From: Actinomycetota bacterium
Lineage (GTDB): Bacteria > Actinomycetota > Actinomycetes > Mycobacteriales > Mycobacteriaceae
Length of the DNA: 49,845 nucleotides
Reading direction: 5' to 3'
Assembly: GCA_018268465.1 (NCBI GenBank)
Contig: JAFDWN010000029.1
Coordinates: forward strand, 1 to 49,845
In this document: piece by piece, positions 21,312 to 46,276 of the stretch
How positions within the stretch are numbered: the stretch's first letter is position 1
Layout: each line of letters opens with the position of its first letter
Program-made: the position numbers and the translations under genes
Notes under the pieces: model-generated
Told to the model about the DNA's origin: nothing
The model's database searches: none
What the model saw: only the letters and a program-made list of their open reading frames with translations

Positions 21312-21326
21312 CCGAGGGGGAAATGC

Positions 21327-26865: not shown

Positions 26866-26921
26866 TTGTCGGTCTCTGTTGTTAGAGTGGGCGGTGTAAG
26901 GGCACGCCAGTGGGGTGGGCC
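26866..26921 (+). promoter_or_regulatory. PafBC-type promoter and leader hairpin of the MoxR operon
   Basis: TTGTCGGTC (26866-26874), 8 bp, then TAGAGT (26883-26888) matches the mycobacterial RecA-independent DNA-damage promoter consensus TTGTCRGTG-N8-TAnnnT. The 22-nt hairpin GGGCACGCCA-GTGG-GGTGGGCC (26900-26921, subclass A) begins 11 nt after the -10 and ends 24 nt before ATG 26946. Confidence 0.75.
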
Positions 26922-26945
26922 TCGTTCACTCAAAGGGATTGTGTG

Positions 26946-28052
26946 ATGGTTGATTTGGCTACGACGGTGACAGTGATTGATGCAGCAGCGCGGGCGGGTG
27001 TGGCGGTGCTTCTGTGGAGCGATCCGGGGACTGGTAAGTCCAGCGTTGTGCGCGCGCTGGCGGCGGCGGATCAGGTTCCGGTGGAGACGCTGATTGGTTC
27101 GCAGCGTGAGCCTGTCGATATCGCCGGGTGGCCGGTGGTGGTTGATGGGGCGGTGCAGACGGTGGCGCTACCGGACTGGGCGAAAACGCTTGTGGACGCA
27201 GGTGGTGGGTATCTGCTGCTGGACGAGTTGACGACGTGCTCTGCGGCTACTCAGGCCGCGATGTTGACGGTGGCGCTCGAGCGAATGGTTGGTCGTCACA
27301 AGTTGCCTGGCGGGGTGCGAATCGTTGCGGCGGCGAATCCGCCGGATCGTTCTGCGGGTGGTGTCGATCTCACCCCGCCGATGGCTAATCGGTTTCTGCA
27401 CATCATGTTTGAGCCGTCCACCGACGAGTGGCTCACGGGGATGCGGGCGGGGTTTCGTACGCTTCCTGCGTCTCGGGCGATTGCCGCCGATGAGTTGCGG
27501 ACAGCCGATGAGGTTGGGGCGGTGTGTGCGTTCATCGAGGCGAGGCCTGAATTGCTGCACCATTACCCGGATACCGACGAGGCGGCGGGGCGGGCGTGGC
27601 CGTCGCGGCGTTCGTGGGACGCTGCGGCGCGGGTGCTGCCGTATTTGCGGGCTGATGACACTGCCAGCGTCACGGCTGCGGTGCTGGGCTTGGTGGGGGA
27701 CGGTGCGGGCAGTGAGTACTTGCAGTGGAGGGCGAGTATGGATTTGCCCGCGGTGGCAGACGTGATCGCGGACCCGTCGATTGTCGACTGGGGGTCGGCC
27801 AGGCCGGATCAGGTGTGGGCCGTGCTGTCGGGTGTGGTCGCGTGGGCGTCGAGCAAAGGCACCACCGATGCGTGGGTGACCGGGTGGGGTCCGCTGGTAG
27901 CAGCGGCGACCAGCGGAGCGCCAGATGTGGCGGGCGCGGCTGCCAGAGCGTTGGCCGTTGCGCGGCCAGCGGGCGCGAAAGTGCCTGCGGCAGCGCGGAA
28001 GTTCAGCGATGTGTTGATCGCGGCGGGACTCGACACCGAGCGTGCAGCATGA
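26946..28052 (+). CDS. MoxR-like AAA+ ATPase
   Basis: 368 residues from ATG 26946, with AAAGGGA upstream. Walker A is in LLWSDPGTGKSSVVRAL (residues ~21-36), Walker B in GGGYLLLDELTTC (~90), then the sensor region GGVRIVAAANPPDRSAGG and the PPMANRFLHI arginine-finger area. The last ~150 residues are helical and Ala-rich. MoxR ATPases work with vWA-domain partners as chaperones or metal-loading remodelers, and the next gene is such a partner (stop overlaps its start, ATGA). The operon is under a DNA-damage-type promoter. Confidence 0.88.
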   Translation: MVDLATTVTVIDAAARAGVAVLLWSDPGTGKSSVVRALAAADQVPVETLIGSQREPVDIAGWPVVVDGAVQTVALPDWAKTLVDAGGGYLLLDELTTCSAATQAAMLTVALERMVGRHKLPGGVRIVAAANPPDRSAGGVDLTPPMANRFLHIMFEPSTDEWLTGMRAGFRTLPASRAIAADELRTADEVGAVCAFIEARPELLHHYPDTDEAAGRAWPSRRSWDAAARVLPYLRADDTASVTAAVLGLVGDGAGSEYLQWRASMDLPAVADVIADPSIVDWGSARPDQVWAVLSGVVAWASSKGTTDAWVTGWGPLVAAATSGAPDVAGAAARALAVARPAGAKVPAAARKFSDVLIAAGLDTERAA

Positions 28053-28208
28053 GTGAGACAGTGCGGGTGCTCACCGCTGATGAGTGGAGGCGGCTGCGGT
28101 TGGCACGTATGGCGGCAGTGGAGGCGATGCCCTACTTCGCGCAGGCGGTGTTCGCGATGGTGCCGGTGGCCATGCCAGGGCTGGGCACGTTCGCGGTGGA
28201 CCGGCATT
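28049..28208 (+). pseudogene. vWA metallopeptidase gene, 5' fragment (split by transposon)
   Basis: Begins at ATG 28049 (MSETVRVLTADEWRRLRLAR) and reads to ...GTFAVDRH before the transposon at 28209. Joined to 39363 across the CGGCATT repeat it continues WRLYIDPAMLGSADGW in the same frame, giving a 420-residue protein. The N-terminal part is the helical start of the VWA-like putative metallopeptidase (DUF2201-type) domain. Confidence 0.88.
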
Positions 28209-28252
28209 TCCCTATTGAATTAGGATGTTGACACAGGTCGAAGGAGAAGAGT

Positions 28253-29818
28253 TTGTCCGACTGGCGGGTGTTCTGGGTTCCACGCGATAGACGATCAAAG
28301 GGTGTGCCGAGTCGTTTGCTGGGTGGGTGGGGCGATCTCGCTGATCGCGAGAACCAAGTTGGGATTATGGCCGGTGATCCAATTTTTCTCGCGCCGGACT
28401 ACAGGGTTGATCGACTACTAGGAGCCTACGGACGATCGATGAAATTCCGTCGATACACGGAGGAGACGCGACGCAACTATGCGACCGACATCAGCCTTCT
28501 GCTGAAGTTTCTTTGGCTGCGACAGACACTTTGGACCGCCGCTGTCGCCAGAGATGTTGAGGACTACGAACACTGGCGGCGGTTCGCTTCGGACAACCCA
28601 TCTCGCGTCGGCGGCTCGAAATGGAACCGCGATTTGGCGGCTTTCGCCAGTCTGTATGAATGGGCCGAGAAGGAAGGACACGTGTCCCGCAATCCACTGG
28701 CGATGAAGCAGATTGTGGGAAGAAACGGCGCGGTGATCATCACCCCAGCGGCAAAGGCAAAAGACGCTCAACGCACAAACGTTCATTGGCTGACGCCGCG
28801 GACGTGGCGCCTATGGATAGACGTGGGCCTTCGGGGACACAATCGCGACGGCCTACCTGAAACGGGCTGGATCGGGCGGTTAGAAGACCGCAACGTGGCG
28901 TTTGTTCGCCTGCTAACGTCATCCGGCCTACGGCGCATGGAAGCAGGATCCCTGCTCACTTTTGAGGTGCCGGTTCAGCATCTGGAAGGCAGCCGTTACT
29001 ACCGCGGCCGTGTGGCCGCGGCGGTCACACGATCCAAGAAGACCCGTACGTTCTATGTCGGTGCGGACGCGGTCGGAGAGATCGACGCCTATATGGAATC
29101 GTCGCGAGCGTGGGCTATTCGCCGCGCGCAACGAAAAGGTGTCTACGCTCGCCTGACCGAGATGCGTCTGGTAACCGAGGTCCACAGACGACCAAATCCA
29201 GTGGTCCGTTGGCGCGACCAGGCAGGCGCTGTCGGTGAGCGCGAACTCCAACACCTCACCGCAAGAGAAAGAATGTCGCTGTTCACTGATGGCCCGAGAG
29301 GACCGGAACCGTTGTGGCTATGGCTGAATGAACGAGGAGTGCCCTTCTTGCCGCACTCCTGGGAAGGTGTGTTCACCACTGCGAACAAGCGATGCCACAA
29401 AGTGTTGACCCCACCGGGCAGAGCTCAGCTCGACCCGTACCAGGTTTTTGCCCCATATGCGACGCCGCACTCTGCACGGCATAGCTTTGCGTTGTACATG
29501 CTGGTGGTGTTGAACACCCTCATGGACGAGAGGTTTGGTCTGACACCGCAGGAACGTCGGGACTACCGTCAGTTGTACGGTGATCCGTGGTTCATGGTTC
29601 AGAACCTTCTCGGTCATGCAGCTCGGGAAACCACGGTGAACTGCTACCTCGCTCCCGTCTCCGATTTACAGCTTCGGGCAATGCTGGCCAGCACTGCGGA
29701 GCCGAGCACGGCACCCATGGCAGAGTTGGATGCAACGTTCGCACGCATAGCGCGGGAATCCATCGGCATCCAAGACTTCGACGACGCATGGACAACCAGT
29801 AGCGGCGGTCCTGCGTGA
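28253..29818 (+). CDS. Tyrosine recombinase, TnpA-like
   Basis: 521 residues from TTG 28253, preceded by AAGGAGAAG. An SAM-like core-binding domain (FRRYTEETRRNYATDISLLL) spans residues ~65-170. The catalytic domain has Arg I in LTSSGLRRMEAGSLL, H-x-x-R in HSARHSFALYML and the final His and Tyr in LLGHAARETTVNCYLAP. All catalytic residues are present. Recombinase of this layout is the first of three in Tn554/RIT-type elements. Its start lies 44 nt from the element's left end, and its stop overlaps the next gene by 4 nt. Confidence 0.9.
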   Translation: MSDWRVFWVPRDRRSKGVPSRLLGGWGDLADRENQVGIMAGDPIFLAPDYRVDRLLGAYGRSMKFRRYTEETRRNYATDISLLLKFLWLRQTLWTAAVARDVEDYEHWRRFASDNPSRVGGSKWNRDLAAFASLYEWAEKEGHVSRNPLAMKQIVGRNGAVIITPAAKAKDAQRTNVHWLTPRTWRLWIDVGLRGHNRDGLPETGWIGRLEDRNVAFVRLLTSSGLRRMEAGSLLTFEVPVQHLEGSRYYRGRVAAAVTRSKKTRTFYVGADAVGEIDAYMESSRAWAIRRAQRKGVYARLTEMRLVTEVHRRPNPVVRWRDQAGAVGERELQHLTARERMSLFTDGPRGPEPLWLWLNERGVPFLPHSWEGVFTTANKRCHKVLTPPGRAQLDPYQVFAPYATPHSARHSFALYMLVVLNTLMDERFGLTPQERRDYRQLYGDPWFMVQNLLGHAARETTVNCYLAPVSDLQLRAMLASTAEPSTAPMAELDATFARIARESIGIQDFDDAWTTSSGGPA

Positions 29819-31557
29819 GTCCGAGAGGTCATCAAGCGGCTCTCCCGACGTCCGATCACCGCCGCCCCGAGTATGTGTCACCGAGCGGCCTCGTGGTCGA
29901 TCACTACAACCGGCAAGGCATCGTAAGAAAGTACGACTTTACGACGCTGCCAGTCGCAGAGCCGATGCAACGTTCGATGGCTGCAGTGTTCGCTGCACGC
30001 TGTGTTCCTCATCTTTGGATGGCCCATTCAAGCTCGTCGACCTATTGGTGGTCGTTGGGCGTCTTCGCCGAGTTCGTGTCGAAGCAACCGCACCCTCCTC
30101 AAGACTTAGACGGTCTCACCGTCAGCGCGATTAAGGGTTGGCGCATTTACTCGCACCGGACCGTCTTCCTCAGAGTCGGTTCGCTTCTCAGCGATGATCT
30201 GAGGTTGCAACGTGGACCGGTAGCCGACGAACTGAAGCGTCGCGTCAATCCGCCAAAGTCCAGCGGAGTTCAGTCTTACTCAGAAGCTGAGTTCGAGGCC
30301 ATCACCAGGATCGCGAAGAAGGACTTTCGATCGGCTTTGCGACGGATCGAATCCAACGCTGCGCATCTGCAGCGGTGGCGCGACGGTAGCTGCGTGGAAG
30401 GTAGCGCCGAGTGGGATCTGGGTGAGTGTTTAGACGTTCTCGCAAGGACCGGCACGCTGCCACGTTATGAGGGCAAGCGGGGCGAGAAATCCTTACTCAA
30501 GCGCTACCGCACCGCCCTGCGACAGTTGGACAACTATACGACGTGGTGCTCGTTACTTTTTCTGACGCGACGCGAGGCCACCTCGCTGGCAGTGCTTTTG
30601 ATGTCCGAGCACGGATGGAACATGTCGGTGATCGACAAGCTGGAAGTTCCGCTGGCCTCTCCAGATCCCGGCCAAGACGGCAATCCGACTTACCGGATTC
30701 CGTTGGAAAAGCCACGCCGAGGAAGCGGTGACCACTTCGAGACACGCAACATCACTGATGACGGATCAGCGTCGCAGGGACGGCTCATTACCCATGCCAT
30801 CCAGGCGACCCGTTTCGCACGAGATTTCGTAGAGACCGCGTCTCCCGGAACCAACCGCCTCATCATCTGGCGAAGCGTGCACGCCAAGCCGGTCCGAGAA
30901 TCAGGCAACCGCGATCGTCAATCACGAGTAGGACCGTTCGGCTTCGGACTGGATACACACGCCGGTATCGCGTGGGGCAAGGCCTTTGGCATTGATGAAT
31001 CGCCGTTTCGCCGCGGACGCCGCACAGTGGTGGCACTCGATCGTCGCGAACCCAGCCAGCACTCTTCGACGACCCACGACCGTGACTACGTCTTGGTCGA
31101 CAAGCGAGTCCAGGCTGAGGCCATCGACACGATTGCCCAAGGAGCTGAGGACGCCGTCAATCATGCCCGGCAAGTCATCTTGATTGCGGAACTTCGCGAT
31201 GAGCCCAGCCCGGATGACGCTCAGACTGCAACAGCTGACTGCAAAAGCTTCAACGACAGTCCCTACCCCGGGGCTGACGGTTGCTGCAGCGCATCATTTC
31301 TCATGTGCCTGGGGTGCACGAACGCACGAATCCATCCGGGACATCACGCCCGGCTTGCTCATCTGCACCACGCTCTGACAAACCTCCGGTCGGTGCTCCC
31401 CACAGACCGTTGGAATGGTGACTGGGGGCCGGCGTTCACGCGCCTTGAAAACCTCAAAGAGCGCCTCGGCGAGGGGGTCTGGAAACTGGCGAAAGTTGAG
31501 CTTAGCGACGAGGACCGCCACGTGATCGGTCACCTTCTGGGCGGGAGCTTGGACTAA
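29815..31557 (+). CDS. Diverged tyrosine recombinase, TnpB-like
   Basis: 580 residues from GTG 29815 (overlap GTGA). LLFLTRREATSLAVLLMSEHG holds a candidate Arg I. RRGRRTVVALDRREPSQHSS with TTHDRDYVLVD holds candidates for Arg II, His and Tyr, compressed compared with the other two. Near the C-terminus, Cys-rich GCCSASFLMCLGCTN suggests zinc binding. Position between two clear recombinases and coupled translation on both sides (stop shares a base with the next ATG) support its role in the trio. Whether it is catalytic is uncertain. Confidence 0.75.
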   Translation: MSPRGHQAALPTSDHRRPEYVSPSGLVVDHYNRQGIVRKYDFTTLPVAEPMQRSMAAVFAARCVPHLWMAHSSSSTYWWSLGVFAEFVSKQPHPPQDLDGLTVSAIKGWRIYSHRTVFLRVGSLLSDDLRLQRGPVADELKRRVNPPKSSGVQSYSEAEFEAITRIAKKDFRSALRRIESNAAHLQRWRDGSCVEGSAEWDLGECLDVLARTGTLPRYEGKRGEKSLLKRYRTALRQLDNYTTWCSLLFLTRREATSLAVLLMSEHGWNMSVIDKLEVPLASPDPGQDGNPTYRIPLEKPRRGSGDHFETRNITDDGSASQGRLITHAIQATRFARDFVETASPGTNRLIIWRSVHAKPVRESGNRDRQSRVGPFGFGLDTHAGIAWGKAFGIDESPFRRGRRTVVALDRREPSQHSSTTHDRDYVLVDKRVQAEAIDTIAQGAEDAVNHARQVILIAELRDEPSPDDAQTATADCKSFNDSPYPGADGCCSASFLMCLGCTNARIHPGHHARLAHLHHALTNLRSVLPTDRWNGDWGPAFTRLENLKERLGEGVWKLAKVELSDEDRHVIGHLLGGSLD

Positions 31558-33683
31558 TGAGCATCACCGACGAGTCCGACCCCTATTTGTTGGCGGCACC
31601 CACACCTGACAGTCCGGTGATCCCGCCATATCGGCTTGGTGCACTCCATGCAGCATCAAACTCACGTTTCGCAGATTCCCTGTGGCCTCTGAGCCCCATG
31701 TCGCAAAATCCAAGTGCCAAGAAGCAAACCATTAACTGGAGCCGATGCGAATCCGCGTCACTACGGGATGAACTCAAACGGGTGGCTTGGAGCATGTTGA
31801 ACGGAGAGCTGCGGCCGACCTTCATGGCTGGCCGACGGATCCGGGCCCGAATCAGCGTGGAGTCCATGTGGAATTCAATTGGCGCCTGGTTCGGCTTGGC
31901 GAGTTGGCTTCACGAACAGGGCATCTCGACCCTCGCCGATTGCACCGGTGAAGTGCTCGGCCTCTACGCGCAGCACCTGCTTCTTGAGGACAACTCGCGC
32001 AATCACGGATTCAAACTGCTAACAGCCCTGACTCGACTTTGGGCATTTGACCAACTTAGCAACGTTCCAATCGGAATCGGACGGCCGCCCTGGGAGGTAG
32101 AAGACATTGACGACTACCTCCCTCCTAAATCTGAGTCCACCGGTGAAAACTCGGCGGAACCCATCTCTGAACGAACTGTGGGACCGCTCCTGATATGGGC
32201 GATGCGGATGATCGATGACTACTCAGATGACATCCTGGCCGCCCGCGATGAACATCAACAGATGGTCGCGTCCATCAAAGCCCGCTCAGCCACCACGACG
32301 GGCCAGGCGGCACTGGCGGCATATCTTGATCCGCTCGTAGCATCTGGGCAGCCCATTCCGGCGACCAAGCAGCATGGGAAGCATGCGGTCGCGCGAACCT
32401 ATTTATCGGGCATCACTGGCGCTTCAGGAAAACAGGTTGACCGATACGCCAGTGTTCATCTTCGGGAAATCGTCTCCCGCCGCCCCGGACCCTGCCCATT
32501 GCTTACGCCGATTACCGGAACCATAGGCGGACGGGCTTGGAGAGAAGCCATTGACTTCAATGAAATTCATGACTTGGTACGCCATCTAGGGACGGCTGCG
32601 TTCATCGTTTGTGCCTACCTCACCGGAATGCGGCCCGGTGAAGTCCTTGGGCTGCGAACTGGATGCTGCCCAGACCCATCATCGGACGATGACGGTACAA
32701 CCAGTCATTACCTGATTCGAGGCCTCGTCTACAAAACAGCACTAGACGAGCATGGCAACCACGACTCGGCCGGCGTCGAGCGGGAAGTTCCCTGGGTCGC
32801 GATCACGCCGGTAGTCAATGCAATCCGTGTCCTTGAACGCATGGTTGCCGACAATGAGTTGCTTTTCGACCATCACACGCACGACGTGCGTATACCGCGG
32901 CCCGGCACGGGATCCATCAAAACTCAGGGGCTCAGGCTCCGGATCAAGGACTTCATTGAATGGGCGAACAATGAGGCAATCCGACTTGATCGATCGGAAG
33001 AACTGATTCCTGATGACCCGCAGGGGACAATCAGCGCGGGCCGCTTCCGGCGTAGCTTGGCATGGCACATCGCGCGACGCCCCAACGGCCTGGTGGCTCT
33101 CGCGATCCAGTACGGGCACCTCCGCACCGCGGTTTCGGGCAACTACGCATCTCGTGCGCGAGGAGGCATCCACGAGCTCATCAACATCGAGACAGCACGC
33201 GCCGTAGCTGACACGGTCGCAGACCTACACGCTGACCTCAATAGCGGCGGGGGCGTATCCGGCCCCGCCGCGCAACGAGCAATCAAGGCTGCTGCCACCG
33301 CACCACGTTTCGCCGGCACCGTCATCACAGCCACTACCGCGCGCAAGCTGCTGGCCAACGAAGACGCCATGTTGTACGACAATCCGCACAGCCTCCTCCT
33401 TTGCCACTACAAACGGGCGCAGGCGCTTTGCCACCGCGACGGTGCCGACAACACACCGCGTCTCGATCACTGCGTTCCAGGCTGTGGCAACACCGTCCGA
33501 ACCGACCACCACGCCGCGAAGCTACGTGAACGCGCCAAACACCTCGACCAACAAGCTAGTCACACCCCCCGCCCATTGGCTGATCGACTGCGCACCAACG
33601 CCAAACGACTTCGCGGCTACGCCGACACCCATGACGCCACACGCATTATTCCGAAGAAGGACTCCGATGACACCGGCAGCTGA
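31557..33683 (+). CDS. Tyrosine recombinase, third of the trio
   Basis: 708 residues from ATG 31557. Arg I lies in AYLTGMRPGEVLGLRTGCC. RFRRSLAWHIARRPNGLVAL contains the H-x-x-R equivalent, and IQYGHLRTAVSGNYASRARGG the last His and Tyr. A C-terminal extension has Cys/His pairs (CHYKRAQALCHRDG, DHCVPGCGNT) typical of the long recombinase in such trios. The 3' end overlaps the TnpC-like gene by 17 nt. Expected to act together with the two upstream proteins in excision and insertion. Confidence 0.88.
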   Translation: MSITDESDPYLLAAPTPDSPVIPPYRLGALHAASNSRFADSLWPLSPMSQNPSAKKQTINWSRCESASLRDELKRVAWSMLNGELRPTFMAGRRIRARISVESMWNSIGAWFGLASWLHEQGISTLADCTGEVLGLYAQHLLLEDNSRNHGFKLLTALTRLWAFDQLSNVPIGIGRPPWEVEDIDDYLPPKSESTGENSAEPISERTVGPLLIWAMRMIDDYSDDILAARDEHQQMVASIKARSATTTGQAALAAYLDPLVASGQPIPATKQHGKHAVARTYLSGITGASGKQVDRYASVHLREIVSRRPGPCPLLTPITGTIGGRAWREAIDFNEIHDLVRHLGTAAFIVCAYLTGMRPGEVLGLRTGCCPDPSSDDDGTTSHYLIRGLVYKTALDEHGNHDSAGVEREVPWVAITPVVNAIRVLERMVADNELLFDHHTHDVRIPRPGTGSIKTQGLRLRIKDFIEWANNEAIRLDRSEELIPDDPQGTISAGRFRRSLAWHIARRPNGLVALAIQYGHLRTAVSGNYASRARGGIHELINIETARAVADTVADLHADLNSGGGVSGPAAQRAIKAAATAPRFAGTVITATTARKLLANEDAMLYDNPHSLLLCHYKRAQALCHRDGADNTPRLDHCVPGCGNTVRTDHHAAKLRERAKHLDQQASHTPRPLADRLRTNAKRLRGYADTHDATRIIPKKDSDDTGS

Positions 33684-34086
33684 CGAACGAGCCCGCATCC
33701 GGGCTGCCATGAAACGCATCCTCAACGGGACACCGACCCGGTCCAACGGCGCACAAACGATCGTCGGTCTGGCCTTGGAGGCCGACGTACCCAGAAATGC
33801 ACTGACGCAACGGCATCTCGACCTAAAGAACGAGTTCTACAGTCTCATCAGCGAAAGCGGGAAACCATCGCCTATCGAGACCACCCTGCGGGCGACCATC
33901 GCCAAGCTCAAGAAGACTATTCACAACAAGAACACCGAACTCGCTCAGCTACGCAACGACGTCCCAGCACTGGTTCGAGCGGTGAACCAGCTCTGCGTCG
34001 AGAACGACGAACTTCGCCGCGCTCTTTCATTACGCAAGAGCGCAGCGCTTGTATCGATCCCGGGAGCGGCAACGCGGGATAGATAA
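33667..34086 (+). CDS. TnpC-like small accessory protein
   Basis: 139 residues from ATG 33667. Residues 1-70 look helix-turn-helix-like (AQTIVGLALEADVPRNALTQ). Residues ~75-120 form a coiled coil (IAKLKKTIHNKNTELAQLRN). This HTH plus coiled-coil layout is that of Tn554 TnpC/DUF6262-type proteins, which aid transposition or orientation choice. It ends the recombinase operon. Confidence 0.75.
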   Translation: MTPAADERARIRAAMKRILNGTPTRSNGAQTIVGLALEADVPRNALTQRHLDLKNEFYSLISESGKPSPIETTLRATIAKLKKTIHNKNTELAQLRNDVPALVRAVNQLCVENDELRRALSLRKSAALVSIPGAATRDR

Positions 34087-34375
34087 CACGCGGCGGGACC
34101 AATGGCCTATCGTCAGGATTGCGGTCGCTGCGATCACCAGACGACCCGAATCGCCAACAACGCAAACAAGACGTCGACACCTCGCCATCCATTGCGGGCA
34201 AACGGCGGAGAATCCAACCTTTCGTCGCAGCAAGCGTTGCGAACCTGGTGGGTTCCGCCGCGGTGGCCGGCCGCACCAACTAGCATCTAGTCGCTGTCAG
34301 CGTGCAGCCTCCGAAGGTTCGACAAGGAGGACGCTGCAGTCCGTGCCCTTGTTCGAACCAGACGTCGGAGAGTTG

Positions 34376-34622
34376 ATGACCACCCCCAGCCCCGACGAAT
34401 CCTTCCGTCAGAATCTGTCAGACCATCTCGCCGGCTTCACTGCGGCCCCTATTCTCTTCGTCGGGTCGGGATTGTCCCGCCGCTACCTGGGCCTGCCCGA
34501 CTGGCCTTCGCTGCTCGAACAGCTCGCCACGCTGACCGACCGCGAATTCAGTTACTACCGCTCTGCAGCCAGCGGCGAGATGCCAGCGATAGCCGAGATG
34601 CTCACCCGGCCACTGCAAGATC
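34376..34622 (+). pseudogene. SIR2-domain defence gene, 5' fragment
   Basis: ATG 34376 follows GGAG; GTG 34343 is an alternative. Residues 20-40 read APILFVGSGLSRRYLGLPDW, the SIR2 NAD+-binding G-x-G-x-S motif, then WPSLLEQLATLTD. IS3 is inserted after codon 82. Joined to 35891 the frame continues to 37239 as a 531-residue protein. Confidence 0.88.
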
Positions 34623-34654
34623 GGGTCTGCTGCACGATCAGGTGACAGTTGCGG

Positions 34655-35817: not shown

Positions 35818-35890
35818 ACTGACATCCTTCCAGCTCACCCGTTCCGGGCAAGCCAACTCAGATGTCACCTATTCGTGCAGCAGACCCATC

Positions 35891-37611: not shown

Positions 37612-39240
37612 TCAGGAATCCGGAGAGAGCACACGCCTCACAATTTCATCTGAAGCATCGAGGAGGCGAAGTAGGTGGCCACGTACAACCCGCTCAAGGA
37701 TGTCCGCCGCCTCAGCCAGAGCGTGCCGGTCATACGTTCTATTCCCGTGCGACAGGTCGTTCCGAACGATCCGGATCGCATCCAACGTCGAAGTAACAGT
37801 TGGGAATTGCGAGCGTACAGACTTGACCAAAGCGCCATCAGTCAACTCCGCCTCTAGATCGATTGGCAACGCCTGGAGCATCTCTCGCAACACTGAATCG
37901 ACCCCCAATGGAGGGCGCTTTGACAGGTGTTTCTTGACAAACTTGAAGACCGTACTTTCGAGGTTGTCCTTGCAGCGAGCGAGCATCGACTCACGCTCGC
38001 TCGCAAACCGTGAATGCCTTTCCTCAGATCGCCTCTCGTAGCCGTAAAGACCTTCTAAGGCCTGGATGAGCAGCAAGAACCGAGCCCGCGGATGTTGGCC
38101 CCGCCCCACAGCGGTGATGTCGTACGTGTTCAGGATGGGATTCTCCGCGACTCGGAGTTCCTGCCATTTGCGAAGCAGTCTCAGGAGCGATTCGCCGTCC
38201 GACGCTAGGCGTATCGCGGAGACATGTTTGTCCTTAAGCGAATTCGTGGAAGCATACGGAGCCTGGCTGATGGAAGCGTTGAAGACTTGGAACTGTCGAC
38301 GTGTGTCACCTTCGATGACTGGAGAGCACGTCAGATGGTTGATATCTACCTTCTCTCCCACCGCCGATGCGACTAGGCCACGAAGCGGAAACACCCATTC
38401 TGTCAGGAATTCGGCGAGTGTCACTGGCTTCGTCAACTCGACTGAAACAACGGGGCTGAACGTCAGGCCGAAGTGATGAAATCCATTGATATCAGCCGAA
38501 ATGTTGTAGTAAACAGACACTTCCGCGCCATCATCGCTCCATTCCTGGAGGCTACCCTTATCGAAGGTAGCGGTGAACTTCGGCTCGTCCTGCTGGTAGA
38601 TGACGCCTCGGGGGAAGGTGATCTCCGCGATCGGACTCTTCCCTACGAACGATTCGAGGTACGGCACTTGGATGACGCCCGAGTCCACCAGTACTGGACC
38701 GTTTCTCGGAGCATCGCGTCCGACGAGAGCTGCCCAGGCGTTGAAGTAGGCGTTCCCCGCCTTGAAGGAGCCCAGGCCCTCACGGGGGTGTTCACCGAAC
38801 ACGGTTAAATGGGCGTCGATCAGCACAACATCGAGATTGCCGTTCATTTCGCCGTGTACCAGCGGATAGTTGAAATGTTGAGGAAAGCCGGCTCCAACTG
38901 ATCCCCCGGTAACAGTCCAGTTCACGGGTGCGGTGCCAAAGACCGTCCCTGCAGGCTGGCGCATTCCCTGCAGGTCGACTTCCCCGGACACGTCCCACAC
39001 TTCGGTGCCCGGCGGCTTCGACAGTGTCCAAGTAGTTCGGTGGGTTCCTGTGTCGATGAGCCCCGACAAAGCGTCTCCAGCCATGCCCTCTCCGATCCCG
39101 CGTAGCAATCCGTTGACCGCAGCATAGAGACCGCCGATCGACAATTGTCGTGCCGCCAACCTATGGTCCTCGGCCCACAGAAGGAAGCGGTGCCGGCTTG
39201 GTGTTTGGATCCGTCCGGCGAGATCCTGGTGCCGAGGCAT
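37612..39240 (-). CDS. ApeA-like HEPN-domain defence protein
   Basis: 542 residues; ATG 39240 has GGGAG 5 nt upstream. The N-terminal ~280 residues form a beta-rich domain (EVWDVSGEVDLQGM, GEMNGNLDVVLIDAHLTVFG, DINGFHHFGLTFSPVVSVEL) as in ApeA N-terminal domains. The C-terminal domain is HEPN: FLLLIQALEGLYGYERRSEE then IRIVRNDLSHGNRTYDR, containing the catalytic R-N-x3-H motif of HEPN RNases. ApeA proteins cause abortive infection by RNA cleavage. It faces the SIR2 gene inside the transposon, so the cargo is two unrelated defence genes. Confidence 0.75.
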   Translation of the reverse strand: MPRHQDLAGRIQTPSRHRFLLWAEDHRLAARQLSIGGLYAAVNGLLRGIGEGMAGDALSGLIDTGTHRTTWTLSKPPGTEVWDVSGEVDLQGMRQPAGTVFGTAPVNWTVTGGSVGAGFPQHFNYPLVHGEMNGNLDVVLIDAHLTVFGEHPREGLGSFKAGNAYFNAWAALVGRDAPRNGPVLVDSGVIQVPYLESFVGKSPIAEITFPRGVIYQQDEPKFTATFDKGSLQEWSDDGAEVSVYYNISADINGFHHFGLTFSPVVSVELTKPVTLAEFLTEWVFPLRGLVASAVGEKVDINHLTCSPVIEGDTRRQFQVFNASISQAPYASTNSLKDKHVSAIRLASDGESLLRLLRKWQELRVAENPILNTYDITAVGRGQHPRARFLLLIQALEGLYGYERRSEERHSRFASERESMLARCKDNLESTVFKFVKKHLSKRPPLGVDSVLREMLQALPIDLEAELTDGALVKSVRSQFPTVTSTLDAIRIVRNDLSHGNRTYDRHALAEAADILERVVRGHLLRLLDASDEIVRRVLSPDS

Positions 39241-39355
39241 AATTCTCCCGCCGCCAGTTTGCGGAGTCCCACGTTTGCTGCCGACGGGCGGAGTGCAAGG
39301 AGCAAGGCCGAATATAGAACCAAAGTTGGGTTCGACACGCTGACTTGACAGGGAA

Positions 39356-40465
39356 CGGCATTGGCGTCTCTATATTGACCCGGCGATGCTCGGTAGCGCC
39401 GATGGGTGGACGATTCCGCAGGCCGGTGCCGTCTTGCTGCATGAGGTCGGGCATCTACTGCGGGAACACGCCGCGCGCGGGGATGCGGTGGACATGCCTG
39501 TGGACCGGGCGATGTGGAACATCGCTGGGGATGCGGAGATTAATGATGACCTGTTGTCGGCTGGCCTAGGATTGCCCAGCGGGGCGGTGACCCCGGCTGG
39601 GATTGGCTGCCAGGACGGGCATGCTGCGGAGGTCTACTACCGCCATCTCGTTCCGCCACAGGCGGCGCGGGCATTTCCGGGAGCCGACCAGGCCGGTGTG
39701 GGCTGTGGTTCCGGGGCCGGTGATACCCCAGTTTCGGGTGAGTTGCCCGCGGAGGCCGACTTGGGCGGTGGGGCCGGATTGTCGAAGGCGGCAGCCGATC
39801 TGGTGCGCGCAGCGGTGGCGCAGGCGGTGCAGACGGCGGCGAACTCGGGCGGTGCGGGGCGAGGCACAGTGCCCGCAGGTGTGCAGCGGTGGGCGGCGGC
39901 GCAGCTTGCCCCTGCGGTTGTGCCGTGGCCGAAGGTATTGCGTGCGGCGGTACGACGCGCTGTCGAGGATCAGGCGGGACAGGTGCATCACTCGTGGCGC
40001 AGGCCGAATCGGCGTGCGATGGGAGGACTGATTCTGCCGACGTTGCGAGCGCCGAAAATTGCGGTCGATCTGATTGTCGACACGTCGGGGTCGATGGGTG
40101 ATGACGACCTGGCGTCGGCATTGTCCGAGACGCGAGGGGTGCTGCGCCAGACTGGTGCGTCGACAGTGCGGGTTACGTGCTGCGATGCTGCGGCGACGAC
40201 ACCACGGCTGGTGCGGTCGATCCGTGAGGTCAACCTGACCGGTGGTGGGGGAACCGATCTTCGGGTGGGCATTGCGGCAGCGTTGGCAGGTCGACCGCGC
40301 GCGGACGTGATCGTGGCGTTCACCGATGGCGGCACCCCGTGGCCGAACCGTCGTCTGCCGGTGCCCCTCATCGTGGCTCTAATCGGGCAGCACGCGGCCA
40401 ACACCGCGCCGGGTTGGGCAAAAACGGTGCGGGTAACCCCGGCCTCGGGATCGGTGGCGGCGTGA
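39356..40465 (+). pseudogene. vWA metallopeptidase gene, 3' fragment
   Basis: Reading from CGGCATT the frame gives RHWRLYIDPAMLGSADG, then VLLHEVGHLLREHAARG (HExxH-like metallopeptidase motif, here HEVGH), MWNIAGDAEINDDLL, and after an Ala/Gly-rich linker a vWA domain with DLIVDTSGSMGDDDLASALS (MIDAS D-x-S-x-S) and VIVAFTDGGTPWP. ATG 39386 could start a shortened protein retaining HEVGH and MIDAS. The normal partner is the MoxR ATPase at 26946, now 11 kb away. Confidence 0.88.
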
Positions 40466-40647: not shown

Positions 40648-41870
40648 GTGCGGCCCTGTTCGATCTGGCGCTGCGGGTGTGCGCGCGCGACATGGGTGCG
40701 GCGGTGCCCCGGCTGTTGCACAATCCTGCACCCAGTCGGGAAGTGACCGTGGCGGTGAGCGCCAGGCGAGCCGGAGGGGCGATACGAGTGCAGGCCATCG
40801 GCCCCAACGGGCGTGCCGAAACCGCCAGTGGCGCGGCCGGTTTGGCGGCGATAGCGCGTGCGGCAGGTTGTGCTAACGGTGACTTGGGCGGGGGACCGAG
40901 TGCGGTTGTCGAGGGCGGTGCGTCCCTTCGTTTTCTCGCGATCCTCGCGACTCGGTTCGCGGACCCGGCGCGCTGCGACTCGGTAGCCGTGGCGGCGGGA
41001 TCGGCGTTGGCCGGGTGGTGGGTGGAGCGAGCGGCGCATCCCGGTACGACGGCGGTGGCTGACGTACTGGCCGTGTCGCGGCAGCGGTACGTGCTGGGGG
41101 TGCCACCGGGCGCGGATCATCCGAATCTGTGGCGGCGGGCGTTCGGGGCAGCGGGCGGACTGGCCGGGGCGCACGCGTGGCACCGGGCAGTCACTGCGGG
41201 GCCCGTGCTGCCCGGTTTGGAGCCGACGCGTGAGGACGATGATTGGCTGCTTGGGACATACCAGGATGCATTGAGCAATGGACGGTCGTGGGATGTGCCT
41301 GAGTCGCTGTATCTGGCAGCTGTGCGGCTGCGCAGCCGATGCGACGCGGCGGATGTCTTTGAGGCGGCACTGCTGTGTGACCCACTGTGGCGGGCGCGCG
41401 GGATACTTACCGGCCATGTGTGTACGGGTGACGTAGTGGTGGGCGTGTCCTCGGCAGGTACAGGGCGAGTGATCGTGCACGCCAACCGGTTAGACACACG
41501 GCTACGCGCCGGGACAGCGGTTATCGGCTGGGCGGGTGCCCCGATGGCAGACATGCCGGCTGTGGACGCCCGCTTTAGCGGGGAAGTCGTGACGACCAGC
41601 GTCGAGGACGGCGCGTTAGCGGTGGCCATCGGCGGTCTGCGGCGCAGTGGTTACCGGCCCGCAGCGGGTGAGACCGTCACGGTGATTCCCGCGCCACCCA
41701 GCCCGTCGACTATCCGGTCAGGGCGTCGGGTACTGGCCAGGCTATACCGTCGTCGGTTCTCCTGGCTGTCACAGGGCGTGACACCTACGCCGGTGCGTCG
41801 AGATGTGCCGCTGGCGGTGGTGATCGCCGCAGCCGAAAACGAGGAACACGACAACGAAGGGGATATGTGA
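40644..41870 (+). CDS. Hypothetical protein of the MoxR/vWA operon
   Basis: 408 residues from ATG 40644. The N-terminal ~150 residues are helical and Ala-rich (GSALAGWWVERAAHPGTTAV). The middle has the segment SWDVPESLYLAAVRLRSRCD. The C-terminal ~130 residues are beta-rich with repeated GDVVVGVSSAGTGRVIVHA and TVTVIPAPPSPSTI. In vWA-MoxR ternary systems the third member is a variable client protein; this gene occupies that place. No domain was recognised. Confidence 0.65.
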   Translation: MSAALFDLALRVCARDMGAAVPRLLHNPAPSREVTVAVSARRAGGAIRVQAIGPNGRAETASGAAGLAAIARAAGCANGDLGGGPSAVVEGGASLRFLAILATRFADPARCDSVAVAAGSALAGWWVERAAHPGTTAVADVLAVSRQRYVLGVPPGADHPNLWRRAFGAAGGLAGAHAWHRAVTAGPVLPGLEPTREDDDWLLGTYQDALSNGRSWDVPESLYLAAVRLRSRCDAADVFEAALLCDPLWRARGILTGHVCTGDVVVGVSSAGTGRVIVHANRLDTRLRAGTAVIGWAGAPMADMPAVDARFSGEVVTTSVEDGALAVAIGGLRRSGYRPAAGETVTVIPAPPSPSTIRSGRRVLARLYRRRFSWLSQGVTPTPVRRDVPLAVVIAAAENEEHDNEGDM

Positions 41871-43198
41871 TGCGCACGCTGCCAAAGGATTTCACTAGGC
41901 GCGGCGCTCCGGCGGCTGGTGGTGCGCCGGGGTCGAATGTCCCTGCGGTATCAAGGCCTGCGGTAGTGGAGGCTTGCAATGTCAGCGCGAATTGGCCGGG
42001 TCGAGAGTTGCTCAACGATACGATGCTGGCGCGGGTTCTGCTGGCGGTGTGGAGCGGTGATCCATGTGTGGTGTGCCCAGCAGCGCCGGGAGCCGGGAAG
42101 TCGAGGCTGGTGACGCTGCTGTCAGCGGCGCTGGCGCACCGAGCAGGTCTACGGGTGGCGGTTGCTGCCCAGACGCGTGAGCAGGCTGCTGAATTGGCCA
42201 GGCGGATTGGGGCGGTCAGTGACCGAGCAGCGCTGATCGTGAACAGTAAGTCCAAAGCCACGGCAGCGGAGAGCATTCCGACTGTAACAGGCCGTCACGT
42301 GCGGTGGTCGCATTCTACGGGTGGTGCGATTCTTATTGGCACTGCGGCTCGTTGGCTGTACGTGGACCCGAATGTGGGTGCGGCTGACGTGCTATTGATC
42401 GATGAGGCTTGGCAGGCGACCTATGCGGACGTGGGAGCGCTCGGCGCACTGGCGCGGCAGGTCGTGCTCGTTGGAGATTCGGGTCAGATCGCGCCCGTTG
42501 TGACGGGTTCGACAACACGTTGGAACGGGCAGGCCACTGGGCCGCACCTTCCGGCCCCGGCAGCCTTGCTGGCCGCGCATGGTGCCGCCGTGACGGTGCA
42601 CGAGCTGACTCACTCCTGGCGGTTGGGGCCGCAGACTTGCGCGCTGCTCTCAGAGCACTTCTACCGGGACATGCCGTTCACATCGCGCCGTCCTGTCGAA
42701 TCGATCCTCGATGCCAACGGGATCGAGCTTCCAGAAATCGTCGGCATCTCTGTACCCACCCGACATGGTCCGACCGACCCCAACATGCTCACGGCAGTCG
42801 CTGACCGGGTGCGCGAATTGCTCGGGTATCGCTACTGCCGCTCCGGTCAGTCCACAGTGCTGACCGGCGACGACATTGCGGTGGTCACTCCACACGTCGC
42901 GCAGGCCGGTGCCGTGCGGGCGCTGCTGGCCGATGTTGACGGCGTACTGATCGGCACGAGCAACTCCGTGCAGGGCCTTGAGCGACCAGCAGTGGTGGCG
43001 CTACACCCGATGGCAGGCTACCGCAGTGTCGAGTCGTTCCCGATGGACCCAGGCCGTGCATGCGTGAGCCTGAGCCGCCATCGCGCACACTTGAGCCTGC
43101 TCACCGATCCGGCCACAGAGTCTCTGTTGTGGGAGTCGTCGGACCCGCTGGCGGTCCGCGCGTCTATGGTCCTGTCGGCGCTGAATGGGAGGTCGTGA
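41870..43198 (+). CDS. SF1-like helicase/ATPase of the MoxR/vWA operon
   Basis: 442 residues from ATG 41870 (GTG 41867 abuts it), with GAAGGGG upstream. Walker A is CPAAPGAGKSRLVTLLSAA (residues ~65-80), motif Ia AVAAQTREQAAELARRIGA, Walker B VLLIDEAWQATYADVG, motif III RQVVLVGDSGQIAPVV. Near the C-terminus DDIAVVTPHVAQAGAV and RACVSLSRHRAHLSLLTD correspond to motifs V-VI of AAA_12/UvrD-like SF1 helicases. Likely acts on nucleic acid. Its promoter has been separated by the transposon. Confidence 0.82.
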   Translation: MRTLPKDFTRRGAPAAGGAPGSNVPAVSRPAVVEACNVSANWPGRELLNDTMLARVLLAVWSGDPCVVCPAAPGAGKSRLVTLLSAALAHRAGLRVAVAAQTREQAAELARRIGAVSDRAALIVNSKSKATAAESIPTVTGRHVRWSHSTGGAILIGTAARWLYVDPNVGAADVLLIDEAWQATYADVGALGALARQVVLVGDSGQIAPVVTGSTTRWNGQATGPHLPAPAALLAAHGAAVTVHELTHSWRLGPQTCALLSEHFYRDMPFTSRRPVESILDANGIELPEIVGISVPTRHGPTDPNMLTAVADRVRELLGYRYCRSGQSTVLTGDDIAVVTPHVAQAGAVRALLADVDGVLIGTSNSVQGLERPAVVALHPMAGYRSVESFPMDPGRACVSLSRHRAHLSLLTDPATESLLWESSDPLAVRASMVLSALNGRS

Positions 43199-43333: not shown

Positions 43334-43388
43334 TTGTCGGTGGTCGGCGGTAGTGTGCGAGGTGTCGGGCACGCCACCAGGGTGGGCC
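43334..43388 (+). promoter_or_regulatory. PafBC-type promoter and leader hairpin, 43406 gene
   Basis: TTGTCGGTG (43334-43342), 8 bp, TAGTGT (43351-43356) is an exact fit to the RecA-NDp consensus. The hairpin GGGCACGCCA-CCAG-GGTGGGCC (43367-43388) starts 10 nt after the -10. Confidence 0.8.
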
Positions 43389-43405
43389 TGGGAACGGAGT
43401 GGACA

Positions 43406-43681
43406 GTGGGATCTCTGGATGGTTTCTCCGACGAGGAGTTTCTGGACCGATTCGATGCTGATGAGTGCCTCGACGGGCCGGTGGGTTGCGACGGGCCGGT
43501 TGTGGCCTATCTGGCGCTATCGGGTTCAGGGGCGCGGTATCCGCGGTGCGAGCGGCACCAGCAGGCAAACGTGGAGCGACTGACACCGATCATGGCAGGA
43601 ATTCGCGAGAGGTATCCGGACCATCCGCTGGCTGATTGGGATCCCATGGACTGCGGCGAGAGCTGGTACGAGGACGAGTAG
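43406..43681 (+). CDS. Conserved-type 91-aa hypothetical protein
   Basis: 91 residues from GTG 43406, with GGAG 7 nt upstream; the frame is open further 5' but would run through the promoter. It is acidic (GFSDEEFLDRFDADECLDGP) with Cys/His residues CDGPVVAYLALSG and YPRCERHQQANVER, suggesting a small metal-binding protein. Function is unknown; expression should follow the DNA-damage promoter. Confidence 0.65.
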   Translation: MGSLDGFSDEEFLDRFDADECLDGPVGCDGPVVAYLALSGSGARYPRCERHQQANVERLTPIMAGIRERYPDHPLADWDPMDCGESWYEDE

Positions 43682-43750
43682 GAAGCGTTCGGGGCCTGCG
43701 TCTTTGGGCGTCGCCGAATGTTGCCCCCAAGGGCTGGCTAAACCCTAGCT

Positions 43751-43800: not shown

Positions 43801-43859
43801 ATTAAGAGCCTACCCAAAGGCAAGGCGGCGGCGCCGCTGCTGAACCGCTGCACTGGCTG

Positions 43860-43915
43860 TTGTCGGTGGCCGCCGGTAGTGTTCGCAATGTTGGGGCACG
43901 CCAAAGGGGTGGGCC
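43860..43915 (+). promoter_or_regulatory. PafBC-type promoter and leader hairpin, DUF3560 gene
   Basis: TTGTCGGTG (43860-43868), 8 bp, TAGTGT (43877-43882). The hairpin GGGCACGCCA-AAGG-GGTGGGCC (43894-43915) starts 11 nt after the -10 and ends 23 nt before ATG 43939. Confidence 0.8.
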
Positions 43916-43938
43916 ACCGAGACTACCAAGGAACTCTC

Positions 43939-44979
43939 ATGTCGAGATTGACGATCACCCATTCACACGCAGACGGCACCTTGATCGAGGGGACTGCTCG
44001 CGGTGACGGTTCGGCCGACATCTTGAAGTCGGTTATTGACCCGTGGACCGGCCGGGCTGGCGCCTGGAGGTGGTCACGAAATCTGGGCAGCTGGTATGTA
44101 GCTCGTTCGCGCGACACCCGTGCAAAAATGCCTTTGATCGAGGCGACTAAATCGGCCCTGGAGACAGCAGGTTTCGAAGTGGCCGTCGAGGTAGACGACA
44201 CTTACCGGGCCGCGGAGGATGTCGAAGCGGATGCAGTGAGACAGCAGGCGCATCGGGTGGACGCGCTCAAGACCAAGGCCGAACGCCGGTCGGCCGCGGC
44301 GGATGCGGCTTGGGAGGCCGAGAAACACGCTCGGGATCTCCTGCCGCCACTGGGACAGCCGATCCTCGTCGGCCATCACTCGGAACGACGCCACCGCAAA
44401 GCAATCGAGCGTGCAGATAATGCGATCCGCAAAGCGTTCGATGCCACGGACGCGGCAGAGGAGACCGCCAGGCGTGCTGCGGCCGCGGCTGGAACGACAG
44501 CCTTCCGGTACAGCCCTTCGGTAATACGCCGCCGTATCGGGCGATTGGAGGCCGAGCTGCGCCGCTTCGAGCGGGCACGCGACGGGCATACCCGGACCTT
44601 GTTCACCGATGGCCGCGGTGTCAAACACGTGGAGACCCAGCCGCCAGCTGTGGGCGACCATCGGGAGCGAGTAGTCGCGGAGATTTCGCGGCTGACCGAC
44701 CAGATTGGCTTCTGGAAAAGGGAACTCGAACAGGCGGCTGAGTCCGGTGCATCCATCTGGGATGCTCACACGGTGATGGTGGGCGATCGTGTCCTGCTCG
44801 GTGTCGGATGGGGAGCTGTCGAGCGCGTCAACGCACGGTCGGTCCGGGTGGCAGGTTGGACGTGGCGTGTTCCATTCGACAAGATCAAACAGGTCGAGAC
44901 GGCCGAGGGGCAGCCTGTCAAGGTGGTCGAGGGCCAGCGCGTTATCACCGCGACCGACCCAGATCAGGATCACGATTAA
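43939..44979 (+). CDS. DUF3560 domain protein
   Basis: 346 residues from ATG 43939, with AAGGAAC upstream. GTLIEGTARGDGSADILKS, LGSWYVARSRDTRA and the helical VGHHSERRHRKAIERADNAI are the signature of DUF3560, found on many actinobacterial plasmids and integrative elements. The middle is a long coiled coil with alternating charge. The C-terminus (VMVGDRVLLGVGWGAVERV) is a small beta domain. Function is not established; the damage-type promoter is a clue. Confidence 0.88.
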   Translation: MSRLTITHSHADGTLIEGTARGDGSADILKSVIDPWTGRAGAWRWSRNLGSWYVARSRDTRAKMPLIEATKSALETAGFEVAVEVDDTYRAAEDVEADAVRQQAHRVDALKTKAERRSAAADAAWEAEKHARDLLPPLGQPILVGHHSERRHRKAIERADNAIRKAFDATDAAEETARRAAAAAGTTAFRYSPSVIRRRIGRLEAELRRFERARDGHTRTLFTDGRGVKHVETQPPAVGDHRERVVAEISRLTDQIGFWKRELEQAAESGASIWDAHTVMVGDRVLLGVGWGAVERVNARSVRVAGWTWRVPFDKIKQVETAEGQPVKVVEGQRVITATDPDQDHD

Positions 44980-45091
44980 ACGAAGGCCGCGATGTCCGTA
45001 TGCCTTGTCGGGACTCACCGATTTCTATGGCGAAGTGCCGGCGGTCGACGAGCATGAGGTGAGGAGGCCGAACTGACCGGCAGAACAGGAA

Positions 45092-45146
45092 CTGTCGGTG
45101 GGGGCCGGTAGGTTGTGGGTGTCCGGGCACGCCATAGGGGTGGGCC
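45092..45146 (+). promoter_or_regulatory. PafBC-type promoter and leader hairpin, DUF4192 gene
   Basis: CTGTCGGTG (45092-45100), 8 bp, TAGGTT (45109-45114). The hairpin GGGCACGCCA-TAGG-GGTGGGCC (45125-45146) starts 10 nt after the -10 and ends 24 nt before ATG 45171. Confidence 0.8.
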
Positions 45147-45170
45147 TAACGTCCCGATTGGGGAATAACC

Positions 45171-46106
45171 ATGAACACAATCAGCACTGTGCCGCAGCTT
45201 ATTTCGGCGATCCCGTCACTAGTTGGCTTCCTACCCGAATACTCGTTGGTCGTCGTGACCTTCGCAGCGGATGAGATCGGCGTGGTGTTGCGGATTGATC
45301 TGTCCGATGCCTCCGCTGGAGTCGACCGGGTGGCTGAGTTGGCCGCTCAGCAGGAGGGCGCGGATACAGCGGTCGCGGTCATCGTCGATGGAGACGGTGC
45401 GTCATGCTCAGCGTGTGCAGGCACCCATCAGCGGCTCGTGGAGACGGTGAGCGACGCGCTGGAAGAGCGGGGCATCATATTGGCCGGCGCATTCGTCGTC
45501 GACTCGATCCGCACCGGCGGACGTTGGCACTGCGCGGACGGCTGCGGTGACCAGGGCGTCCTCGACAACCCCAGTTACGACGCACTGCTCGTTGCAGCCA
45601 AGACTGGGCGACGGATCTATGGGAGCCGCGCGGAGCTGGAAGCTGTAGTGGCTCCTGACATGGCACGCCGTGGCAACCTGGAACCGCTCATGGCCAATGT
45701 CGGGGCATCTACAGATGCCGTCGCGACGGCGATCGCGGCCGCACTACAGCACCGCGAGGGGGTCGATCCCTCAGATCTGGTGCTCGCCGCCATCGCAGGG
45801 GCGACCGACGATCCACGTGCGCGAGATGCCTTCTACGCGCTGGCAGTCTCTGAGGTGGCAGCCCCGATGGAGGATCTGTGGGCGCTGCTGGCGCGAGTGC
45901 TGCCGGGCCGTTGGAGAGTAGCGGCACTCGGACAGCTTGCGTTCTCGGCCTATGTGCGGGGTGACAGTGTGATAGCCGGCATCGCCGTCGATGAAGCGGC
46001 GAGGGAGGGAATCAACCACCCGATGGTGGAGCTGCTCGGCACGGCCCTTGATCACGTGGTGCCGCCTGAAGAGGTGCGCGCCTTGGTCACGGGCCTGGCG
46101 GCATGA
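45171..46106 (+). CDS. DUF4192 domain protein
   Basis: 311 residues from ATG 45171. VPQLISAIPSLVGFLPEYSL then VVVTFAADEIGVVLRIDL is the unmistakable opening of DUF4192, an actinobacterial family common on chromosomes and conjugative elements. Later WALLARVLPGRWRVAALGQL and AYVRGDSVIAGIAVDEAARE complete it, with a CSACAGTH insertion in the middle. No biochemical role is established. Confidence 0.92.
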   Translation: MNTISTVPQLISAIPSLVGFLPEYSLVVVTFAADEIGVVLRIDLSDASAGVDRVAELAAQQEGADTAVAVIVDGDGASCSACAGTHQRLVETVSDALEERGIILAGAFVVDSIRTGGRWHCADGCGDQGVLDNPSYDALLVAAKTGRRIYGSRAELEAVVAPDMARRGNLEPLMANVGASTDAVATAIAAALQHREGVDPSDLVLAAIAGATDDPRARDAFYALAVSEVAAPMEDLWALLARVLPGRWRVAALGQLAFSAYVRGDSVIAGIAVDEAAREGINHPMVELLGTALDHVVPPEEVRALVTGLAA

Positions 46107-46220
46107 CGTCGGCGGGGTGGCCGATCACCGGGGCCACCCCGCACACGTATGCCCAAGAACACTTTGGCAGACGGGTAACCCATTGGCGGGCAGCAGAACT
46201 GAAGGCAACCACCCTATCGA

Positions 46221-46276
46221 ATGTCGGTACCCGCGATTAAGGTGGTTGATGTAGGGGCAGGCCATGTGGGCAGGCC
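46221..46276 (+). promoter_or_regulatory. PafBC-type promoter and leader hairpin (subclass B), 46306 gene
   Basis: ATGTCGGTA (46221-46229), 8 bp, TAAGGT (46238-46243). The hairpin GGGCAGGCCA-TGTG-GGCAGGCC (46255-46276) starts 11 nt after the -10. It and the preceding TGATGTA closely match the copy at 21290. Confidence 0.75.

Follow-up and report, generated by a model that had tools for sequence, protein, structure and literature searches.

The RecA/LexA-independent promoters of mycobacteria that depend on PafBC (P1 promoters) have the consensus tTGTCRgtg, followed after 8 nucleotides (nt) by the -10 element TannnT (PMC5656591). The established role of PafBC is in the regulation of repair. It is activated by single-stranded DNA (ssDNA), gaps are usable for this purpose, and local sources of ssDNA were judged more plausible by the authors of that work (PMC11804915); a term search of that paper did not return the word 'conjugation'. 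Here we analyze a 49,845-nt contig (JAFDWN010000029.1, hereafter the window) from an actinomycete of the family Mycobacteriaceae, in which the same promoter arrangement of box, 8-nt spacer and -10, also found at the boxes of host recA, radA, uvrA and uvrB, is plasmid-borne, occurs as a set and is followed in each case by a structured leader, in contrast to the chromosomal PafBC promoters. Plasmids of two genera have taken up this promoter in sets and coupled it to an RNA leader. Titles and abstract openings, the scope of our literature search, with preprints and most subscription papers outside it, contained no plasmid PafBC regulon and no such leader.

Three other described systems resemble this locus in part. 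In the pLS20-family plasmids of Bacillus, one conserved sequence, the establishment gene regulatory sequence (EGeRS), precedes several plasmid operons of variable gene content, and a conserved secondary structure has been considered for it as well (PMC8708921). However, EGeRS1 is 420-751 bp long and has no regular promoter, and EGeRS2 needs a plasmid repressor (PMC8708921), unlike the combination of a short host-activator promoter and a 23-nt hairpin described here. The Frpo and ssi elements of plasmid leading regions are likewise hairpins in front of plasmid genes with a possible early role after entry (PMC11541004), but here the hairpin lies in the transcript rather than in the promoter, and both plasmid strands are used. 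Finally, Csf2, Cas11 and CysH of the type IV-B Csf system (PMC7937560) are encoded in the window; this locus is a neighbor of the regulon.

PafBC-type promoters and their leader hairpin

The pattern HTGTCGGTV-N8-TANNNT occurs in the window at exactly five positions, all on the plus strand: 26866..26888 (promoter 1, before a MoxR gene), 43334..43356 (promoter 2), 43860..43882 (promoter 3), 45092..45114 (promoter 4) and 46221..46243 (promoter 5). All five, which had been proposed in a first-pass annotation of this DNA, are exact matches and fit the published consensus (PMC5656591). Dinucleotide shuffles of the window (n=100) contained on average 0.01 such patterns, and at most one. Across the 6.88-Mb host genome, there are 21 matches, 5 of them in the window contig (49,845 bases in total), compared with 4 for a reversed-pattern control. 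The spacing is tightly constrained: plasmid-region DNA totaling 588 kb contains 287 occurrences of TGTCGGT, and TANNNT follows at N9 (V plus N8) 88 times, at N13 twice, at N12 a single time and never at N3-N8, N10, N11, N14 or N15. Because 53 of these 88 promoters are the sites by which the regions were picked, 35 are independent of that choice. Their designation as PafBC promoters is a sound sequence reading and their identity is well supported, and we infer their activity.

The host genome carries two adjacent WYL genes. The one compared with the Protein Data Bank (PDB) matches chains 7p5x, 9fnd/9fne and 6sj9, the chain named PafBC, and by this homology the host encodes a PafB orthologue. 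Five of the 16 other genomic boxes were examined for the downstream gene, and all five precede DNA-repair or exonuclease genes, namely, recA (L020), radA (L003), uvrA (L007), uvrB (L002) and a DEDD exonuclease/UvrC-like gene (L016). The chromosomal PafBC-type sites of the host are not followed by the leader hairpin.

Alignment of the upstream regions revealed a 22-nt block, GGGCANGCCANNNGGGNNGGCC, that is exactly conserved behind all five window promoters and has no other exact match in the genome. It corresponds to a predicted 9-bp RNA hairpin located 10-11 nt past the -10 element, near the expected transcript start; the usual distance from a -10 element to the start would place the hairpin near the 5' end of the RNA. 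The five hairpins lie on the plus strand at 26900..26922 (35.2 bits, R1, with the covariance model (CM) described below), 43367..43389 (34.2 bits), 43894..43916 (25.9 bits), 45125..45147 (35.0 bits) and 46255..46277 (28.9 bits). Two further copies of the block are present in the window, one at 21290 with one mismatch and one at 34490, on the minus strand, with two. The first-pass annotation had defined the regulon by its promoters; these stand, but the unit is the promoter together with a structured 5' leader, which had gone unnoticed.

Among the 88 exact promoters of the plasmid regions (588 kb plus NZ_CP122997.1), the block is present by sequence in 82; as 53 of the 88 were found through the block itself, the fairer count is 29 of the remaining 35. 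Four of the six block-less promoters (L226+7065, L232+7787, L241+7512 and L243+5987) are followed by an altered sequence that, judged by eye, adopts a like fold with changed pairs, and two (L235+17596 and L235-19999) have no hairpin at all. A simple pattern finds the hairpin in 73 leaders, and in 65 of these the distance from the -10 to its start is 10 or 11 nt.

To assess covariation, 77 distinct promoter-defined leaders, minus the two without a hairpin, were filtered at less than 85% identity, yielding a set of 57. RNAalifold predicts the hairpin unaided from these sequences, and 91.7% of the cells in the 8-pair stem are paired. The stem contains 30 double-change cells, compared with 9.0 +/- 2.3 in shuffled and 1-4 in slid controls. 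On the coding strand, G-U combinations outnumber A-C ones by 36 to 3 in seven pairs and by 41 to 5 in all eight, although the leader rows are mutually related, so that a p-value for this contrast is not to be taken literally. The excess of G-U over A-C argues for selection on the RNA. Positions 5 and 19 form a mismatch in 52 of the 57 leaders, and the A and G found there are each at least 90% conserved; in pCBMA213_1 (L351), the mismatch positions read G and A, by eye. An RNA hairpin in the leader is, from these comparisons, well supported. A gathering-score search of the window against Rfam produced no matches. A second, weaker hairpin that encloses the ribosome-binding site is found in 47 of 66 leaders of relatives, compared with 14.0 in shuffled sequences, but is not clear in most of the five leaders of the window.

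The block copy at 21290 forms a sixth leader hairpin (21290..21312, plus strand), which follows a -10-like TACCCT and lacks a PafBC box, was not among the CM matches at an E-value of 0.5, and precedes a gene for a helix-turn-helix (HTH) protein (21327..22190, plus strand; PF01381, 1.1e-4). Homologues of this gene in L259, L348, L242, L229, L244, L246 and L355 also have the hairpin upstream (in L246 and L355 by eye). No box at the required spacing precedes the HTH gene in the window or, by eye, its homologues, except in L229 (G282), where the one-mismatch box TGACGGT stands at the right spacing. The leader therefore does not depend on the PafBC promoter, although, given the L229 exception, the line is not a sharp one. 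A candidate second promoter motif, TGGGCCTAA, was rejected because it forms the end of cysH in L229 and L244.

Distribution and gene content of the promoter-hairpin module

The boxes recur as plasmid-borne sets on related plasmids. A search of 396 genomes of the genus for the composite of promoter and block gave 53 sites, spread over 12 genomes, and a reversed control yielded none. The sites are clustered, with up to eight per contig (G230:C2) and in both orientations, such that modules lie on both strands of one plasmid. Among the plasmids, M. adipatum pMYC1 (252,568 bp, circular) carries a type VII secretion locus, a VirB4-like ATPase and an FtsK-like gene; a Pfam search with ten large pMYC1 proteins returned AAA_10 and FtsK-type matches only. 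A VirB4-like homologue is present on seven module contigs (G034:C2, G164:C2, G278:C3, G230:C3, G230:C2, G282:C2 and, weakly, G206:C2), and in the remaining module genomes on contigs other than the module one. In the genome of the window, this homologue is on contig C4, not C21, and C4 also has a copy of the leader; the window contig and C4 may be parts of one plasmid akin to G230:C2. That leader copy (G000:C4:51886-51926) has a TGTCGGC box. Another extra copy in the same genome (G000:C9:118273-118312) looks like a decayed remnant.

A CM was built from the 57 leaders, and the genus and order scans with it used stricter filters. Across 148 genomes of the genus, it matched 5 sites in G000, 13 in G030, 13 in G034 and 1 in G059, the latter without such a promoter upstream; across 298 genomes of the order, matches were confined to G000 and G246. 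As an independent test, the model was applied to eight plasmid records chosen by DUF4192, none of which had been used in building it. L349 gave five and L348 four matches (20.9-46.8 bits), and weaker ones were found in L355 (M. abscessus; three, 16.1-20.8 bits) and L352 (one, 22.6 bits, no box seen); L350, L351, L353 and L354 gave none. The bare leader pattern is unspecific, occurring in at least 120 stretches of the genome contig collection and in 23 of the viral contig collection. Outside the genome of the window, promoter and leader occur together, among the matches listed, in L081, L109, L135, L143 and L181, all from Mycobacterium. A viral origin was considered and dismissed: 13 viral stretches fit a loose composite, the sequences inspected show no full module, a tighter pattern gave no matches, and the viral contigs contain no relatives of the DUF4192 protein or the 91-aa protein described below. 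At one site (L311, from 1502 onward; G030:C67:18767), the PafBC box and leader are directly followed by a strong G+C-rich hairpin with no evident gene start in the stretch inspected; this unit possibly specifies a small damage-induced RNA.

In other lineages, the promoter is accompanied by a hairpin of a different sequence. Four Gordonia plasmids contain 18 exact promoters, all at N9, with such a hairpin; this form was found via the promoter, not via the CM. L350 (M. paragordonae), L351 and L353 (Gordonia) likewise have PafBC-type boxes, that of L351 off at one position, followed by hairpins of other sequence. The hairpins, compared by sequence, are alike within a plasmid and different between lineages. 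In Rhodococcus, a single PafBC-type promoter, accompanied by an unrelated hairpin, lies on pRHL3 (L367, 23654) two genes upstream of a DUF3846 gene, and DUF4192 genes lie about 1.8 kb (L358) and about 5.8 kb (L354) before mobF.

Gene families were tallied over 13 plasmid sets, using the first gene that a script called after each site, for 107 of 108 sites (80 with exact box and leader, 14 with one-mismatch box and leader, 8 with an exact box and, in that test, no leader, and 6 with a leader and no box). The most widespread are DUF4192 (10 of the 13 sets), a zincin (9), an uncharacterized family weakly similar to DUF3846 (8), and a DnaN-like and another uncharacterized family (7 each). MoxR, the 91-aa family and a 51-aa family are each found in six sets, DpdA-like and HATPase families in five, and methyltransferase/helicase, DUF3560 and HTH families in three; a DNA ligase occurs in one (Pfam). 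The DnaN-like label is mixed, in that the best PHROG is a 'RusA-like' family and a processivity factor comes second, but the Gordonia counterpart is a clear DnaN homologue. The DpdA-like gene (L225, minus strand from 7359, with homologues in five sets) lies behind a module and matches PF23859 at 2e-121, a family of 7-deazaguanine DNA modification. By these family assignments, the module gene set looks like one of DNA modification and handling rather than of repair alone.

Possible roles of the plasmid-borne regulon

By a modest preference, we read the locus as a plasmid-borne regulon that responds to a host sensor, with PafBC driving protection or establishment genes and the leader adding control at the RNA level; we infer both the establishment role and the function of the hairpin. 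After damage, host PafBC activated by ssDNA would direct RNA polymerase to the plasmid promoters, and single-stranded plasmid entry or gap filling might provide a further source of ssDNA, next to the promoters of the plasmid itself. Because PafBC responds to ssDNA, plasmid entry is an alternative to damage induction. Of the damage-induced program suggested by the first-pass annotation, the sets of PafBC-type promoters on plasmids hold, but damage becomes only one reading and plasmid entry another. DNA-modification, clamp-like and other DNA-handling proteins made at that moment would constitute an establishment program. The hairpin would act as RNA, either as a shield of the 5' end or, more likely, as a site bound by an RNA-binding factor that the plasmid encodes and that tunes all members together, a binding partner being favored over mere protection because the mismatch is constant in a varying stem. 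The HTH gene would come under the same RNA-level control, independently of PafBC. If PafBC indeed reports plasmid entry, a host damage sensor would double as a plasmid-establishment switch, and DUF4192, DUF3560 and DUF3846 would gain a testable context. The covarying stem with its fixed A.G mismatch offers a handle for a partner hunt, with the type IV-B complex among the candidates.

Several observations weigh against this interpretation. A TrwC relaxase is encoded in 9 of the 12 module genomes but on no module contig, and a PF03432 relaxase in none of the 12, the search being limited to these two families; MOB-suite rates pMYC1 and most records as non-mobilizable. Among the plasmids with DUF4192, a single box without such a hairpin is present on each of Rhodococcus L354 and L358, no box on L359 and M. 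gordonae L360, and one TGTCAGT box, again without such a hairpin, on M. fortuitum L352; the genes therefore do not need the promoter-hairpin pair. The identification of the zincin with the antirestriction protein ArdC, which would suit an establishment role, is not supported: no match was obtained in Pfam or the PDB, NCBIfam gave nothing relevant, and an anti-restriction PHROG scored 0.015. A simple pairing score hardly separates leaders from shuffles, with 38 of 77 leaders scoring 7 of 8 compared with 23.4 expected, and 4 scoring 8 compared with 2.5 expected, so that the case for the hairpin is one of covariation, not of crude pairing score.

In a plain DNA-damage regulon, which we regard as possible though rather unlikely, the plasmids would survive ordinary damage, there would be no entry role, and the hairpin would only guard the 5' end. 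Consensus and spacing equal to those of host repair promoters, and a hairpin a few nucleotides from the expected 5' end, as simple protection needs, are consistent with this explanation. However, the genes lean to DNA modification and plasmid proteins of no assigned function, the host targets lack the leader, and the A.G mismatch that is kept while the pairs vary is unexplained by protection alone. A bolder extension, an entry alarm, is to us a tentative proposal: host PafBC would sense incoming or gapped plasmid DNA, the lineage-specific 5' hairpin tag would be read by a plasmid-encoded RNA-binding factor, perhaps a guide-less Csf complex, and the plasmid would in this way steer its entry genes after transcription. 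The position of the block just downstream of the promoter, and the presence of an HTH gene in the set, would also suit an operator of double-stranded DNA close to where transcription begins, to which a plasmid repressor, for example the HTH protein, would bind. This is improbable, as a DNA palindrome would not predict that the coding strand admits G-U but not A-C, and pairing is kept through changes of the paired sequence. Least credible of all is an Frpo-like promoter formed by the folded single strand itself. The plasmid setting and the hairpins before possible establishment genes are as described for Frpo (PMC11541004), but here the hairpin comes after the box and -10, which are outside the fold, and with modules on either strand of one plasmid, some could not lie on the transferred strand.

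Another alternative is that the hairpin is a loading or recognition element of the neighboring Csf complex of type IV-B, a complex for which no guide RNA is known, and that the tagged messages are its partners. The window at 16081-21252 is a type IV-B CRISPR-like locus, with genes for a weakly supported Csf3-like protein, Csf2, Cas11 and a 276-aa protein on the minus strand, and two uncharacterized genes and cysH (PF01507) on the plus strand; Csf2 and Cas11 match structure 7jhy (3.6e-111 and 9e-42, respectively), and several module plasmids share this gene order. The published type IV-B complex held heterogeneous RNA (PMC7937560). Homologues of Csf2 are encoded in 19 of the 396 genomes, including 11 of the 12 with the composite compared with 8 of the 384 others; of these eight, G176, G286 and G290 have true modules, G294 has unclear matches, and G083, G189, G228 and G342 have no module. 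In PLSDB, 67 records match Csf2, 40 of which are listed. Of the 11 mycobacterial records, 10 were inspected (AP023334 was left out) and 9 have modules, two of these indirectly judged; all four Gordonia records have them. Conversely, M. intracellulare AH16 has Csf2 but no module in 40.8 kb, and among the 3 of 47 Rhodococcus records inspected, pBD2 and pREL1 have none within about 20 kb (about 40 kb inspected), the third being pRHL3 with its single promoter. A shared plasmid backbone accounts for the association of Csf2 with the modules, and this is how we read these occurrences, leaving a slight probability that the link is functional; a role of the hairpin in the Csf complex is accordingly quite unlikely.

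Genes behind the window promoters

The first-pass annotation placed a MoxR/vWA/helicase operon behind promoter 1. The promoter is present, but the operon is not intact, as an 11.1-kb insertion (28207..39344), absent from G230:C2, to which the flanking sequence is 90-97% identical (blastn), lies inside the vWA gene. The MoxR-type AAA ATPase (26946..28052, plus strand) matches PF07726, PF07728 and PF20030 weakly and the ATPase PHROG 1297 at 1.8e-52. It is followed by the first part of the vWA gene (28049..28231, plus strand, in the frame of the open reading frame (ORF) 27725-28231), the split being seen by comparison with G230:C2. The rest of this gene, from about 39345, encodes a DUF2201 metallopeptidase/vWA-like protein (39386..40465, plus strand; PF13203, PF09967), and a helicase-like AAA protein follows (41867..43198, plus strand; PF13604, PF13087). 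In NZ_CP122997.1, L349 and L350, MoxR and vWA adjoin, with the helicase next. The insertion carries three tyrosine-recombinase-like or associated genes, an IS3 element, a SIR2-like gene and an ApeA/HEPN-like gene, possible defense cargo.

The genes assigned to promoters 2 to 4 were all recovered. Promoter 2 precedes the 91-aa protein, which has no assigned function (43406..43681, plus strand; PHROG 6230, of unknown function, 2.5e-21), promoter 3 the DUF3560 protein (43939..44979, plus strand; PF12083, 9e-24) and promoter 4 the DUF4192 protein (45171..46106, plus strand; PF13830, 1e-62), the predicted structure of which has a pLDDT of 67.6. The hypothetical gene behind promoter 5 (46306..46944, plus strand) is likewise present, but its similarity to the homologue in G230:C2 (blastn) ends at 46851, within the gene, and the product is 212 aa long compared with 294-295 aa in homologues. 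Upstream of promoter 1, on the minus strand at 23562-25982, the window encodes an 806-aa HATPase protein similar to MutL and to restriction enzymes of the BbrUII/HgiDII family.

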